From NCBI RefSeq assembly GCF_003312875.1, contig NZ_CP015163.1, positions 5,766,001 through 5,830,000 of the forward strand: DNA of 64,000 nucleotides, given 5' to 3'. A program made the translations under genes and the position numbers. Shown in pieces: positions 30,930 to 36,458 of this stretch (its first letter is position 1; every line of letters starts with the position of its first letter). Source of the DNA: Amycolatopsis albispora (lineage in GTDB: Bacteria; Actinomycetota; Actinomycetes; Mycobacteriales; Pseudonocardiaceae). The notes beneath the pieces are model-generated. The model worked only from the letters and a program-made list of their open reading frames with translations, searched no databases and was not told where the DNA came from.

Positions 30930-31283
30930 TCACGACGAGCTGTCGACCGGCCCGGCTCGCGCCCTGCCCGAGGCCGCCGGGAACCGGGCCAGCGGCCCCG
31001 GCAGCCCGGCCCGCGTCTCGACCAGCGCGTCCCACCCGTCGAGCCGGCATCCGGCCAGCTCCACGCGCATCTCCGCGACCACCTGCCCGGCCTTCGCGCA
31101 GGCGGCTTCGGCCCCGTCGATCGCGGCTCCGGCCGCCGCGAGCGCCGCCAGATCGGCGGCGGCCGACGCCCGCTGCCTGGCGAGCACCACGGCGCCCAGC
31201 CCGTACAGGGCGGTGGCCACCAGCACCAGCGCCGCGACCGCGGACGCCGCCCAGACGGTGGCCACCCCGTCATCCCGGCGCAC
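30930..31283 (-). CDS. Rv3654c-family TadE-like protein
   Basis: 117 residues. It begins RRDDGVATVWAASAVAALVLVATAL, a short leader plus the single N-terminal membrane helix characteristic of TadE/TadG-like pseudopilins; a helical region and a Gly/Ala-rich C-terminus follow. Two cysteines (AACAKAG, LAGCRLDG) may form a disulfide. It is the last gene of the tad operon and overlaps tadE by 14 bp. Probable surface or secreted minor pilin-like component. Confidence 0.88.
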   Translation of the reverse strand: MRRDDGVATVWAASAVAALVLVATALYGLGAVVLARQRASAAADLAALAAAGAAIDGAEAACAKAGQVVAEMRVELAGCRLDGWDALVETRAGLPGPLARFPAASGRARAGPVDSSS

Positions 31284-31620
31284 GGTCCACCACCTCCGGT
31301 TCGTACAGCGCGTAGGCGTGACCGTTCAGCCGGAGCCCCGGCAGCAGCCTCGCCCCGGCGGCCACCTCGACGGTGACCGCGTCACCCGCCGGCCGCACGA
31401 CGTACTCGGCACCCGCCGGGCCGATCTCGCGCACCGCCCGCTCGGCCGACTCCGGCTGCCCGCGGGCGACCAGCCGGGCCGCTTCCCTGGCCGCGTCCGC
31501 GCACCGCAGTTGGTCGGTCATGGCCACCAGGCCACCGATGAGCAGGAAGAAGAAGCCGGACAGGGCGCCGAGCGCGATGGCGGTCTCCACGGTCACCGCC
31601 CCGCGGTCGAGCGCCCTCAT
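31270..31620 (-). CDS. TadE-family minor pilin-like protein
   Basis: 116 residues. RGAVTVETAIALGALSGFFF is the pilin-like leader and helix, with the conserved Glu (VTVE) five residues after the Gly processing site, as in type IV/Flp pilins. A soluble beta-rich C-terminal part follows. It overlaps the DUF4244 gene by 4 bp (ATGA, 31617-31620). It corresponds in position to Rv3655c. Confidence 0.9.
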   Translation of the reverse strand: MRALDRGAVTVETAIALGALSGFFFLLIGGLVAMTDQLRCADAAREAARLVARGQPESAERAVREIGPAGAEYVVRPAGDAVTVEVAAGARLLPGLRLNGHAYALYEPEVVDRAPG

Positions 31621-31787
31621 CCCGGGGCCTCCAATGCGTCCTCGACCAGGGCCGCCAGCAGATCGACGACCATTCCGCCGGTGACCAACTTGAACAGCAC
31701 CGCGGCGAGCGCGGCGGCGACCAAGATCACCACCGTGTATTCGACGGCCGCGGAACCGGCATCCCGGTGCAGCTCGAGCGCGTTCAT
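31617..31787 (-). CDS. DUF4244 Flp-pilin-like small protein
   Basis: 56 residues. The leader MNALELHRDAGSAAVEYTVV is followed by a hydrophobic helix (ILVAAALAAVLFKLV) and a short tail. The GSAAVEY segment has the Gly cleavage site and Glu+5 of Flp-type pilins, so this is the likely major pilin subunit of the tad system. It matches Rv3656c/DUF4244 in length and place. ATG at 31787 has AAAGGA upstream. It overlaps tadE by 4 bp. Confidence 0.9.
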   Translation of the reverse strand: MNALELHRDAGSAAVEYTVVILVAAALAAVLFKLVTGGMVVDLLAALVEDALEAPG

Positions 31788-31810: not shown

Positions 31811-32467
31811 TCAGGGCAGGGTCAGCTGGGCCGCCAGCCCGGCGAGCACGGGCAGCACGCCCCAGCAGAGGAAGGCGGGCAGGAAACAGAGGCCGAGCGG
31901 CCCGGTGACCAGCACGCCGGCGCGCTGCGCCCGCGCCTCGGCCTGGTCGCGCATCGCGGCTCGGACCCGCTCGGCGAGCGCGTCGGCGACCCCGGCCAGC
32001 GCCGAACCGGACCGAGCCGTGCGACGAGCGGCTCTGGCCAGCTCAGCGGTGTCGGCGCAGGTGCTCGCCGCCGCCCAGGCGTCGCGGGGGTCCGCGCCCA
32101 GCGCGAGCAGTTCGGCTGTCGAGCGCAGGGCCGAGGCCACCTCGTCCGGCGCGCCCGCGGCGACCGCCCGGATCGCGACCGGCACCGGCAACCCGGCCCG
32201 CAACGCCGCGGCGAGCAGATCCCAGCCCGCCGCGAGCCGCCGGGCGTCGGCCGCCGAAGGCACCCGAGGCCGCCGAGCGGCGAACCGCATGCCCAGCACC
32301 AGCCCGATCGCCACGACCATGCCGCCGACTCCGGCCAGCACCGCCATCAGGCCCACCGCGGTCAGTTCGAGCAGCAGCCGAGGCGGCTTCCTGACGTGAC
32401 GCGGGATCTCGCGCATTCCCGGCCAGAGCGCAACGGCACCGGCGAGCAACGCCATCGCCGCGGCCAT
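31811..32467 (-). CDS. Type II secretion F-domain protein (TadC-like)
   Basis: 218 residues with N-terminal membrane helices (LLLELTAVGLMAVLAGVGGMVVAIGLVLGM region), a cytoplasmic four-helix T2SF domain (LAAGWDLLAAALRAGLPV, ALRSTAELLALGADP) and two C-terminal helices. It forms the inner-membrane platform of the pilus machine with TadB. ATG 32467 shares one base with the upstream TGA stop (TGATG). The longer open frame upstream overlaps tadB and is not used. Confidence 0.9.
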   Translation of the reverse strand: MAAAMALLAGAVALWPGMREIPRHVRKPPRLLLELTAVGLMAVLAGVGGMVVAIGLVLGMRFAARRPRVPSAADARRLAAGWDLLAAALRAGLPVPVAIRAVAAGAPDEVASALRSTAELLALGADPRDAWAAASTCADTAELARAARRTARSGSALAGVADALAERVRAAMRDQAEARAQRAGVLVTGPLGLCFLPAFLCWGVLPVLAGLAAQLTLP

Positions 32468-33216
32468 CACGGCGAGATCCTGGTCAGCCGGGCCGTCCAC
32501 ACCACACCCGCGGCGAGCAGCGCCGCGCCGAGCAGCAGCATCAGCTGCCCGAGCCCGGTGTTCGCCAGCAGGTGCACCGGCCGCGCGCCGATTGCCTCGC
32601 CGAGCCCGATCCCGGCCACGGGCAGCGCGGCGAGCACCACCGCGCTCATCCTCGGCCCCGCCATGGTGGCCTGGACCCGCCTGGTGAACCGGAGGCTGGC
32701 ATCGAGGTCGCGGCGTACCGCGCCCAGCACTCCGGCCATGGGCAGGCCGTGGCGGTGGGCCAGCAGCCAACTGCGGGCCAGTTGCGCGGCGGCGCCTTCG
32801 GACAGGTTCGGGTCATCGCCCAGCCGGACCGCACCGGACACGGCCCGGACCGCCTTGGCTGTCTCGGGCGGCGAATCCATCGCGGCGGTTTCGGCGGCCG
32901 TGGCGGGATCGGCACCGGCGTCGAGTTCGGCTGCCATCGTGCGCATGGCCTCGGCCATGCCCTCGGCTTCCGCGATCCGCGCCTTGCCCGCCGCGACCGA
33001 GCGCCAGAAGTACCGGCCCGCGGCGGCCAGAACCAAGACCGCCACCGGCCCGGCCGGCCCGAGCGCGAGAAAGGCCGCCAGCAGAGCGGTCACGCAGCCC
33101 GTCACCGTCGCAAGTAGACGGACACGTGGCTGGGGTGGGGTGCGCGGGAGTTCCACCGCGCGACCAGGCCAAGTGAGCAACGCGGCCGCGGCGAGCAGCA
33201 GGGTGAGCGTCAGCAT
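32467..33216 (-). CDS. Type II secretion F-domain protein (TadB-like)
   Basis: 249 residues: two N-terminal helices, then a T2SF domain (MAEAMRTMAAELDAGADPATA, SWLLAHRHGLPMAGVLGAV) and two C-terminal helices (MSAVVLAALPVAGIGLGEAI, LGQLMLLLGAALLAAGVV). Platform protein paired with the downstream TadC-like protein; corresponds to Rv3658c. It overlaps tadA by 7 bp. Confidence 0.9.
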   Translation of the reverse strand: MLTLTLLLAAAALLTWPGRAVELPRTPPQPRVRLLATVTGCVTALLAAFLALGPAGPVAVLVLAAAGRYFWRSVAAGKARIAEAEGMAEAMRTMAAELDAGADPATAAETAAMDSPPETAKAVRAVSGAVRLGDDPNLSEGAAAQLARSWLLAHRHGLPMAGVLGAVRRDLDASLRFTRRVQATMAGPRMSAVVLAALPVAGIGLGEAIGARPVHLLANTGLGQLMLLLGAALLAAGVVWTARLTRISP

Positions 33217-34364
33217 CTCTTGCCTCCGGGGTCGCCCGGGAGCAGGGTGCGCAGGGCGGGGCCATGCTCGGTCCAGATGCCGTCCTGCCAGGCCGTGAGG
33301 ACCTGGAGCCCGTCACCGCCCCGGCGCACCACCGCGATCTCGGCGAGGCGTCGCGTGTTGTCCGGACCGCGAACCATGTGCAGCACAACGCGGATCGCGG
33401 CAGCGACCTGGCTGTGCACGGCATCGCGTGAAAGCCCGCCCAGCGCCGCCAGCGCTTCAAGCCGCGCCGGGACTTCGTTCGGCGAATTGGCGTGCAACGT
33501 GCCGGAGCCGCCTTCGTGCCCGGTATTGAGCGCGGCGAGCAACTCGCATACCTCGCGACCGCGGACCTCACCGACGACCAGTCGGTCCGGACGCATGCGC
33601 AGGGCCTGGCGAACGAGTTCGCGCAGCGTGACCTCGCCGACACCCTCCACATTGGGCGGTCGCGCGACGAGCCGGACGAACTGCGGGTGCGAGGGATGGA
33701 GTTCGCCCGCGTCTTCGACGCAGACGATGCGTTCGGTCGGCGGCACCGCGCCGAGGAGGGCGGACAGCAACGTGCTCTTCCCCGCACCGGTGCCGCCGGT
33801 GACCAAAAAGGCCAGCCGGGCGGCGACGATCGCGCGGAGCACCGAGGCGCCGGTCGCGCCGAAGGTGCCGAGGCGCTGGAGTTCGGCGAGGTCGTGCTTG
33901 GCCGGACGGAGCACGCGGAGGGACAGGCAGGTGCCGTCGGGCGCCAGCGGTGGCAGGACCGCGTGCAGCCGGACGCGGCCGTGTGGACCGGGAATCCAGC
34001 CGTCGGCAAACGGCTGCGCGTCATCGAGGCGACGCCCGGCCGTGGTCGCCAGCCGCTGCGCGAGCCGCCGAACCGCGTCCTCGTCAGCGAAGGCGACCTC
34101 GGTTTTGCGGAGGCCTTCCGCGCCCTCGACCCAGACTTCGGTGGGTGCGGTGACGAGCACGTCGGTCACGTCGGGATCGGCGAGCAACGGCTCAAGCGGT
34201 CCGGCGCCGACGAACTCGTGGCGGACCATGCGGAGCGTCTCGAGCAGTTCCTGATGCCCGGCGATGCCATTCGCCTCGGCACGCACCGCTTCGGCGAGGG
34301 CCGTGGCTCCGGTGCCCTCCCTGGCCAGACGACGGCGTACCCGATCGACGAGATCAGTCGTCAT
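33210..34364 (-). CDS. TadA-family secretion/pilus ATPase
   Basis: 384 residues. An N-terminal all-alpha/beta domain (FVGAGPLEPLLADPDVTDVLV) precedes the ATPase core: Walker A VTGGTGAGKSTLLSAL, Asp box VCVEDAGELHPSHPQFV, Walker B PDRLVVGEVRGREV and His box GHEGGSGTLHANSP. It powers assembly or secretion by the tad machine and corresponds to Rv3659c. ATG at 34364 lies inside the end of the repeat-protein gene (11-bp overlap), so its translation is probably coupled to that gene. Confidence 0.94.
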   Translation of the reverse strand: MTTDLVDRVRRRLAREGTGATALAEAVRAEANGIAGHQELLETLRMVRHEFVGAGPLEPLLADPDVTDVLVTAPTEVWVEGAEGLRKTEVAFADEDAVRRLAQRLATTAGRRLDDAQPFADGWIPGPHGRVRLHAVLPPLAPDGTCLSLRVLRPAKHDLAELQRLGTFGATGASVLRAIVAARLAFLVTGGTGAGKSTLLSALLGAVPPTERIVCVEDAGELHPSHPQFVRLVARPPNVEGVGEVTLRELVRQALRMRPDRLVVGEVRGREVCELLAALNTGHEGGSGTLHANSPNEVPARLEALAALGGLSRDAVHSQVAAAIRVVLHMVRGPDNTRRLAEIAVVRRGGDGLQVLTAWQDGIWTEHGPALRTLLPGDPGGKRC

Positions 34365-35385
34365 GGTGGGCCTCCGGTTTGTGCGTTCTCTCGGCGGTGC
34401 CGCGTCTTGCGGGTTGGGAGTTCCGGGTGGTGGTGATTGGCGGGCATGGCTGCGCAGCGGGCGGGGCTTGATGCGCGGGCGGGATTTCGGGCGCGGGCTG
34501 CGGGTCGGGTGTGGACGGAGGACTTGGCGTGGGTGAGGTTGGCTGCGGGGACAGGGGCCTGGGCGGAGGCTTGGGGACAGGCCGCGGAACAGGAGCGGGC
34601 GGCATGGTGTCCGGAGGCGGCTCAGGGCTGGTCGAAGACGGCCCGGCCGGTGACTGGGGTTTTTGCGCGACGAGCAGTTCGGCCGGGGATTGGGATATGT
34701 GCACGACGAGCGGCTCGGTCGCAGGCTGGGCTTTGTGAGCGGCGGGCGACTTGGCGCTGGACAGGGTGGGTAGCGCGCGAGCGGTGGGCGCGTTCTTGGG
34801 ATGCGGGGGACATGGGTGCGCCTTGGGCGTAGAGGTAGCGGGACGGGCCAGGCGATGAAGAGCGTCGGGAAAGGTCCGGCGGCCGAGGGCTGCGTGACGG
34901 GTAGGGCGCTCGGGCGCGGCGGGAGAGGCAGGGCGATGTAAAGCGGCGGGGTCGGCCTGGCGGTCGAGGGCGGCGTTTTGAGCCGTGTGATGCATGGCGG
35001 CGGAATGGGCACGGTGGTCGAGGGCAGCCGGAAGAGCCTGGCGGTGTATGGCGGCGGGGTGGGCCTGGCGGTGCACGACGGCCGGATGAACCCGGCCATG
35101 CAAAGCGGCGGGACTGGGCGGGCAGCACAAGGCGGCGGAATGAGCCCTGCGGTGCACGACGGCCGAATGAGCCCGGCGATGCGAGGCGGTGAGATTGGGC
35201 GGGCAGCACAAGGCGGCGGGATGGGCCCGGTGGTGCAGGGCGGCGGGATGGGCGCGGGGATGCGAGGCGGTGGGATGAGCCTGGCGTTGTGAGGCGGCGG
35301 GATGGGTTTGGCGTTGTGAGGCAGTGGGATGGGGCGGACTGGGCGAGGTGGAGGGGTGGGGCGCGGGTTGGAGGGTGGTGGTCAT
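34354..35385 (-). CDS. His/Pro/Ala-rich nonapeptide-repeat protein inserted in the tad operon
   Basis: 343 residues. Residues about 25-185 are some 18 tandem copies of a nine-residue unit, consensus LHRRAHPAA (variants VHRQAHPAA, SQRQAHPTA, LDHRAHSAA, LCCPPSPAA). The rest is a Pro-rich, low-complexity tail ending THKPEAHHDD. I see no signal peptide, membrane helix or known domain; it should be largely disordered and strongly positive. That the frame is used is supported by the ATGA overlap with ssd (35382-35385), AGGAG at 35395-35399, the 11-bp overlap with tadA and high GC at third positions. The other frames also look repetitive because the 27-bp unit is a multiple of three. Function unknown. 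Confidence 0.72.
   Translation of the reverse strand: MTTTLQPAPHPSTSPSPPHPTASQRQTHPAASQRQAHPTASHPRAHPAALHHRAHPAALCCPPNLTASHRRAHSAVVHRRAHSAALCCPPSPAALHGRVHPAVVHRQAHPAAIHRQALPAALDHRAHSAAMHHTAQNAALDRQADPAALHRPASPAAPERPTRHAALGRRTFPDALHRLARPATSTPKAHPCPPHPKNAPTARALPTLSSAKSPAAHKAQPATEPLVVHISQSPAELLVAQKPQSPAGPSSTSPEPPPDTMPPAPVPRPVPKPPPRPLSPQPTSPTPSPPSTPDPQPAPEIPPAHQAPPAAQPCPPITTTRNSQPARRGTAERTHKPEAHHDD
34990..35340. repeat. 27-bp imperfect tandem repeat array
   Basis: About 13 clear units on the plus strand of the form GGCGGCGGGATGGGCCTGGC plus 7 nt ending GTGCAC, GTGCAA or TTGTGA, each 27 bp; more diverged units continue toward 34840. The array encodes the nonapeptide repeats of the minus-strand gene 34354-35385. 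Confidence 0.88.
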
Positions 35386-36458
35386 GGGGTGGGCTCCTGG
35401 CGTGGGAGGGCGGTTAGGGCGGCGACCGCTGCGGAGTGGAGGGGGCTTCGGCGGCGTGGGGGTGGGTAGGTGCCCCGGGCGAGGGAGCGGGTGAGGCGGG
35501 ACTCTCGCCGGTATTCGGCCAGCAGGGGGGCGCCGATGCGGGTGGCGGCTTCGGTGGCGGTGGGGCCCGTGTGGGCGGGGCCCTGCGCGACGATGCGGGT
35601 GTCTGCACCCGCGCTTCGCAGGAGGGCGACCACGTGCTTCGCGGCGGAGCAGGCTCGGTGTTCGAGTGGGACGACCACCACGGCCAGGTCGGCACGCGCC
35701 GCGGCTTCGGCGGAGCCGTCGCCGAGGTGGCGCGGCAGGTCGCACACCACCAGGCGGCCGGCGCGGCGGGCCGACTCCACGACGCCGGCGATGGCATCGC
35801 CGCTGGGACGGCTGCCATCGGCCGACAGCCAGCTGAACCAGCCCGCCCCGCACTCCCGTCGCGGCAGGGCCTCGTCCAAAGCGGACAGCAGCACCCTGCC
35901 GGAGTCCACGCGCAGGTCGGACCAGCGCGACTGACCGTGGTTTTCCGCGCCCAGCAACAAATCCAGGCCGCCGCCGAGTGGATCGCAGTCGATCAGGAGC
36001 GGGTGCTCCCCCGCTCTCGCCGCGACGGTGGCGACCCCGGCGGCGAACACCGAGGCGCCGGCGCCACCGCGCCCGCCGAGCACCGCGAGCACGCGTCCGC
36101 CCGGCCGGGCCGGACCGTCCACGATTTCGGCGAATGCCTTCAGCACCGCGGTTTCGTCATCGGGCAGGGAATGCACCTGTTGCGCGCCGACGGCGAACGC
36201 GCGCTGCCAGGTCCCCGGCTCCGGCGGCCCCTTGCACACCACCAGCACACCCTTGCGCCGCGGCAGCTCGACCGGGTCGTCCTCGGTGACGGCGGCTTCG
36301 TCCACCAGCACCAGCGGCGCTTCTTTCCAGCGCGCCCGCGCGGCGAAAAGATCCGGTACGCATTCCGTTTCACAATTCGCGACCGCGGCGAGGCGCAGGA
36401 CTTCGTCGAGTACGACCGCGTCGGCCGCGACTACGAGGGCGCGGTTTCCGGTCACTGG
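35382..36458 (-). CDS. ssd: Ssd/TadZ-like septum-site/pilus-localisation ATPase-like protein
   Basis: About 358 residues. The N-terminal third is receiver-like (RALVVAADAVVLDEVLRLAAVA). The C-terminal two thirds are a MinD/ParA-type fold: VLAVLGGRGGAGASVFAAGVATV followed by PLLIDCDPLGGGLDLLLG and VVCDLPRHLG. The deviant Walker A lacks the lysine (GGAGAS), as in related Ssd proteins. In mycobacteria Ssd (Rv3660c) affects septum formation; TadZ relatives position the pilus machine. GTG 36458 has a GGGGGG leader; ATG 36470 is an in-frame alternative. It is the first gene of the tad operon. Confidence 0.88.
   Translation of the reverse strand, partial: PVTGNRALVVAADAVVLDEVLRLAAVANCETECVPDLFAARARWKEAPLVLVDEAAVTEDDPVELPRRKGVLVVCKGPPEPGTWQRAFAVGAQQVHSLPDDETAVLKAFAEIVDGPARPGGRVLAVLGGRGGAGASVFAAGVATVAARAGEHPLLIDCDPLGGGLDLLLGAENHGQSRWSDLRVDSGRVLLSALDEALPRRECGAGWFSWLSADGSRPSGDAIAGVVESARRAGRLVVCDLPRHLGDGSAEAAARADLAVVVVPLEHRACSAAKHVVALLRSAGADTRIVAQGPAHTGPTATEAATRIGAPLLAEYRRESRLTRSLARGTYPPPRRRSPLHSAAVAALTALPRQEPTP

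Follow-up and report, generated by a model that had tools for sequence, protein, structure and literature searches.

We lean towards reading the open reading frame (ORF) that fills the gap between ssd and tadA in the Tad/Flp operon of Amycolatopsis albispora as a translational-relay cistron, which would preserve the coupling of tadA to ssd despite an expanded junction. The ORF lies in a stretch of 64,000 nucleotides that was analysed as a whole (the window). In the mechanism proposed here, tadA would have been coupled to ssd through an ATGA overlap, with ribosomes that finish ssd restarting on tadA, and this direct coupling was presumably the ancestral state. The junction would then have expanded in the lineage of the window, which would break the link unless the insert were translated from end to end, and an ORF running from the old ATGA to the tadA start would carry ribosomes across it. 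Such an insert would be best tolerated if ribosomes were carried over it in this way, because coupling does not survive distances above about 20 nt: in the accessible part of one study reinitiation is nearly abolished at about 20 nt, with loss in E. coli gene pairs given at 38 nt (PMC10666635), and the accessible part of another reports strict coupling in 13 of 14 tested overlapping gene pairs (PMC6728339). The window ORF would accordingly be translated, its repeat would be mostly filler, presumably added by later slippage, in which the residues matter little, and selection would act on continuous translation and not on the product.

The minus-strand gene order in the window is ssd, the ORF, tadA, tadB, tadC, an flp-type frame, tadE and a tadF-like gene (Table 1). 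An earlier sequence-only reading had described a minus-strand frame of 343 codons that overlaps ssd by ATGA and tadA by 11 bp, has AGGAG upstream and encodes about 18 LHRRAHPAA-like copies followed by a Pro-rich tail. All of this was borne out, the array, which takes up half of the ORF, consisting of 19 exact 27-nt units with HPAALHRRA as the majority unit (18.4 copies, 64% matches and 2% indels according to TRF). The whole product of 343 residues contains 74 Pro, 65 Ala, 33 His and 27 Arg. When coupled cistrons are defined by a start between -8 and +10 nt of the upstream stop, the ORF falls within this range with respect to ssd (-4), and the tadA start, 11 nt before the ORF end, falls just outside it. 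The 11-nt overlap is no independent evidence for a gene, because the first bases of tadA (ATGACGACTGA) hold off-frame stops and both off-frames are closed within 11 nt. The GGAGG that tadA itself possesses may permit independent starts, which would count against a relay. By eye, the stretches ahead of the ORF start and of the tadA start are alike past the ribosome-binding site (GGAGCCCACCCCATGAC and GGAGGCCCACCATGAC), a likeness that would fit a duplicated junction. No promoter-like site was found in the region, the single terminator-like site was on the plus strand and shuffled sequences gave the same number, and no RNA family reached its gathering score within the ORF. Upstream of ssd, a 6C RNA (RF01066; 36627-36703, minus strand; 58.1 bits, E 3.2e-06) may be part of the leader of the Tad operon.

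Table 1. Features of the Tad/Flp region of the window, by position in the 64,000-nt stretch.
Feature	Position	Strand	Remarks
ssd (CpaE/MinD-like)	35382..36455	-	TIGR03815, 284 bits; GTG start assumed
AGGAG, ribosome-binding-like site of the ORF	35394..35398	-	within ssd
Candidate relay ORF in the ssd–tadA gap	34354..35385	-	343 codons; ATG at 35385, TGA end at 34354
ATGA, ORF start on ssd stop	35382..35385	-	4-nt overlap
Array of 19 in-register 27-nt units	34819..35331	-	consensus HPAALHRRA; codons 19-189, without indel
Pro-rich, low-complexity tail	34354..34818	-	includes PVPKPPPRP
GGAGG, ribosome-binding-like site of tadA	34371..34375	-	within the ORF
Stretch shared by ORF and tadA	34354..34364	-	ORF stop 11 nt into tadA
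tadA ATPase	33210..34364	-	TIGR03819, 480 bits
tadB	32467..33216	-	T2SSF
tadC frame	31811..32770	-	T2SSF; true start probably ~32467, by eye
flp-type pilin frame	31617..31787	-	by eye
TadE-type minor pilin	31270..31620	-	NF041390
Rv3654c-type TadE-like protein	30930..31283	-	TIGR03816

Comparison across the genus supported the earlier claim that the ORF is a true operon member and not a shadow, although not through the features first cited for it. TadA was used to search 80 Amycolatopsis genomes; 79 were positive at E 1e-60 and an upstream ssd could be readily placed in 76. The two genes are joined within 31 nt in 39 of the 76, including 24 with a 4-nt overlap (23 ATGA and one GTGA), and are separated by a spacer of 163-1107 nt in the other 37. 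In the long spacers elsewhere in the genus, the ORF that starts in the ATGA of ssd ends early, its stop overlaps the start of the next ORF, and this continues onward to tadA. Under a strict rule (a 4- or 1-nt start/stop overlap at each link, spacers above 100 nt, interiors shuffled 300 times each), which superseded a looser one covering 19 loci, such a chain led from ssd to tadA in 33 of the 37 spacers against 12.8 expected from the shuffled interiors, counts that are not independent events since the genomes are related. The last ORF was out of the tadA frame in all 33 chains and ended in tadA's own NTGA (4-nt overlap) in 31, and four chains (L052, L067, L068 and L069) had a final link of three codons. 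We infer that the chains are maintained by selection for coupling. A set of 34 named Amycolatopsis loci was kept out of the other-genera comparison, as the genus had already been counted; for five of them the genus set contains no tadA with an identical start, namely two direct overlaps, two spacers outside both sets that have a full chain (L089 and L093) and one locus without ssd in reach.

Outside the genus, the analysis took in 23 spacers that had a readable start and measured 100 nt or more, and a full chain was found in ten of them (3.0 expected): eight of 11 in Lentzea, with up to seven ORFs, one in Actinokineospora and one of eight in Saccharothrix, the latter being an in-frame run into tadA (an in-frame fusion). 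The remaining 13, comprising seven of the eight Saccharothrix, all three Prauserella and three of the 11 Lentzea spacers, had no chain. As read from these sequences, the pattern, though strong, has exceptions. Coupling is not indispensable, because chains are missing in these 13 spacers, in four of the 37 genus spacers (G009, G020, G059 and G068) and in G010. This last genome is one of the three of 79 that fall outside the 76, together with G001 and G070. In G010 a DUF2891 gene (L168, 6576-7619; 408 bits) follows ssd, overlapping its stop by ATGA, and the 305 nt left between that gene and tadA hold no chain. G001 has about 5 kb between ssd and tadA. In G070 an antisense IS110-family transposase gene (L167, 132-1601) lies between them, and the sister genome G079 has a plain ATGA. 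The 1465-nt IS110-bearing gap of G070 contains a sense ORF of 489 codons, with ATGA at its ssd end and TAATG at its tadA end, which would speak for a relay but may be luck, because GC-rich genes frequently have open antisense frames.

The nearest relatives of the window, G053, G057 and G026, have TadA proteins 89-91% identical to its own. The ORF in the ATGA frame has 343 codons in the window and 317, 73 and 154 in G053, G057 and G026; every one of them starts in an ATGA, and those of the three relatives stop 11, 4 and 4 nt into tadA. All four products are Pro-rich and barely alignable, sharing their first residues, a Pro-rich stretch (PVPKPPPRP in the window tail, comparable to PKPPPxPKPPP in G053 and G057) and little else. 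Among these four genomes the nonapeptide array is limited to that of the window, and G053 has a different array of 12 in-register six-residue units (RPxHVx). The ATGA frame is open in all four clade members, with two stops in each of the two other sense frames; that number is itself below the 4.7 expected, which counts against the relay. Between G053 and G057, 34 codons picked as the sole alignable inner segment of the clade differ at 4, 5 and 15 sites by codon position (pS 0.48, pN 0.14); for tadA of the same pair pS was 0.30 and pN 0.03. The frame loss in homologous loci that would have spoken against a gene, as the sequence-only reading had put it, was not seen, given the open ATGA frame in the clade, the chains of the genus and the constraint in the G053/G057 segment.

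This amino-acid constraint in a Pro-rich segment, together with the small junction proteins conserved elsewhere (family A and a Lentzea mini-ORF, see below), argues for a second explanation, in which the product itself matters as a disordered Pro/His/Arg-rich accessory of the Tad system, for example a scaffold binding Ssd or TadA and made in step with both. The Pro-rich part of the window ORF may indeed be functional itself, but as an account of the whole ORF we consider an accessory protein rather unlikely, since the clade members have so little sequence in common, the array bears no detectable mark of selection and no homologue was found among the candidates scored. Variability within the array was near equal at the three codon positions (0.39, 0.36 and 0.41), and its pN/pS was 0.81 against 0.95 (sd 0.19) in permuted columns, with 27% of 500 permutations equally low; amino-acid selection on the array was therefore rejected, as codon position, frame and column permutation tests gave nothing significant. 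Among the best 7,991 candidates scored there was no homologue of the ORF product, not even an identical protein, and no family matched it in Pfam (E up to 1) or NCBIfam (E up to 0.01), described Tad/Flp protein families included. In its own genome the protein search returned nothing but its own locus below E 0.69 (best 150 of 178 candidates), and at the DNA level matches elsewhere in four genomes were of 43 bits or less (best 40 candidates per genome), so that a dispersed mobile repeat was discarded for these scored candidates. AlphaFold2, run without an alignment, gave a mean pLDDT of 46.5 and placed 33 of the 343 residues in the 70-90 range, which suggests that the product is likely disordered and is otherwise uninformative. 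The metal-, nucleic acid- or pilus-interacting role put forward in the sequence-only reading found no support, since the array is present in one of four clade genomes and comes without a homologue among the candidates scored, a family match or detectable selection. Its remark that no such protein is described in Tad systems agreed with the literature matches listed, but unnamed junction proteins do exist in databases, for instance a hypothetical protein of A. balhimycina.

Taken alone, the window ORF is weak evidence for a gene. When the spacer was dinucleotide-shuffled 2000 times, its frame stayed open in 14% of cases, a value for which openness was dropped as proof of a gene; in the spacer, one of the other sense frames contains no stop at all and the third a single one. 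Stops are rare in the spacer because its sense strand is 51% C and 21% G. These values, the third-position GC of the ORF (only 0.74) and the lack of an identical protein among the candidates scored would all suit an untranslated C-rich minisatellite spacer that is open through base composition alone. We judge this improbable in view of the excess of chains over shuffled spacers, the ATGA frame that is open throughout the clade when the two others carry stops, and the third-position bias between G053 and G057. Counting against the relay, a start/stop chain had a 0.21 chance under shuffling for the window ORF alone; the product for the four clade members was about 0.02. A TadA N-terminal extension or programmed frameshift product, suggested by the tadA frame being open from 35099 (33210-35099, minus strand, 629 codons), is very hard to sustain, as the tadA frame varies relative to the ATGA frame among the four species, the G026 spacer has a stop in it and all four tadA genes retain a start at the same place.

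The relay that we favour resembles several known systems. Mycobacterial MIRUs have units that measure from tens of bp up to about 100 bp. In the accessible part of one report, their internal ORF is coupled to the gene at the insertion site with a spacing of -4 nt (PMC12548453). Both MIRUs and the window ORF sit among co-directed operon genes, those of the window being co-directed and overlapping in an operon read from sequence, and in both an internal ORF is tied to the flanking genes by start/stop overlaps. Unlike MIRUs, which are short and interspersed, the window ORF has 1032 nt and 343 codons with a 27-nt internal repeat, and no dispersed copies of it were found among the candidates scored; in addition, the filler of some relatives is made from the junction itself. 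By this analogy, the window ORF would work like a MIRU but is not one. Termination-reinitiation pairs (ATGA/TGATG) have the same overlaps and follow the same distance logic in the accessible parts of PMC6728339 and PMC10666635, but there two genes are involved, whereas here a variable filler cistron or chain separates the two. Short upstream ORFs whose sole task is to deliver ribosomes are also alike in their proposed role, since their translation would serve the next gene and not their own product (accessible part of PMC12548453), although the window ORF is long, is flanked by two genes within an operon and has an expanded repeat. Among the literature matches listed, in which subscription journals are thinly covered, none dealt with the ssd-tadA junction or with chains made by junction duplication.

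Judging from their spacers, relatives have very different small genes in the ssd-tadA gap, some of which grew from copies of the junction. Ten loci were searched for such copies in 20 tests without multiple-test correction, the query letters being singly shuffled 200 times. A copy of the tadA 5' end beat all 200 shuffles in four of the ten loci (G026, with 54 nt, Lentzea sp. NBRC 105346, G077 and G039), and a copy of the ssd 3' end reached p <=0.01 in three (G026, Lentzea sp. NBRC 105346 and L. atacamensis). The spacer of Lentzea sp. NBRC 105346 contains a 49-nt tadA 5' copy with two mismatches and a 48-nt ssd 3' copy with 39 matches. In G026, from the window's own clade, the 54-nt tadA copy is followed by a 28-nt ssd-like piece, which, as read from the sequence, is the order given by a tandem duplication of the junction; with such a duplication, a ribosome-binding site and an ATGA would come along. 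By eye, mini-ORFs of Lentzea such as MTALSVDGVREELPS look like a TadA N-terminus joined to an Ssd C-terminus. Among the ten loci, no significant junction copy was found in G000, G053, G057, G046 and G068. A copy in the window's own spacer was looked for and not found (best p 0.03), and five of the six spacers tested outside Lentzea and family A, the window's included, had no standout copy. The window spacer would presumably also have begun as a junction duplication.

Tentatively, and with less than even confidence, we propose that the junction could be a cradle of new genes: tandem duplication of an ATGA junction would give a mini-cistron with translation and coupling in place from the start, chains would drift freely while they stay open, and some would become repeat proteins like that of the window and others conserved small proteins now acting on the Tad machine, as in family A and Lentzea. 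If this is true, duplication of a stop/start overlap would be a route for bacterial gene birth whose intermediates can still be seen in extant species, and it might account for some low-complexity "hypothetical proteins" inside operons. Family A is a small junction protein of 28 Amycolatopsis genomes, which form one clade with support 100/99 on the tadA tree (79 genus genomes plus 17 of 80 named loci; the family-A genome G005 was unlabelled by the motif). Its core, RVxELLLPTVLTLxxRGPxSAxNFLxLL, had a pN/pS of 0.59 in the 27 of 28 genomes analysed, G024 having been missed by the motif. Like the window ORF, family A sits between ssd and tadA, starts in an ATGA at ssd (usually with another at tadA) and has a Pro-rich tail; unlike it, family A has a conserved core and is placed far away on the tadA tree, and neither the window ORF nor any of its three closest relatives showed the core motif (RVxELLLPTVLTL...SAxNFLxLL). 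In five of the 12 Lentzea loci examined, an ORF of 33 residues adjoining tadA had a pN/pS of 0.19 for the final 31 codons. Both cases show that junction products can be selected for themselves.

Two similar mini-ORFs of about 32-37 and 33 residues stand in tandem in the Lentzea loci L116, L118, L120, L124 and L136, the second lying directly before tadA in L116, L120 and L136. In L134 and L154, the sequence of the second mini-ORF before tadA is inside a longer open frame. The family-A spacers contain 93 GTRVTA-like units (five mismatches or fewer), of which 53 are exactly GTRVTA and 85 are in the frame of the chain. A dispersed DNA repeat was considered and rejected for these units, since their mismatches by codon position (44, 44 and 168) fall mostly on the third, so that they look conserved as protein. 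The pattern GGCACNCGNGTNACNGC had 5-12 exact matches per genome in four genomes, and 2-9 of these lay at a single further repeat locus. Lastly, a separate ORF locus of GTRVTx hexapeptide repeats, a motif shared with the family-A junction proteins, was present in all four genomes examined (G000, G053, G007 and G016; L163-L166, L163 being G000:C1:8500916-8501133).
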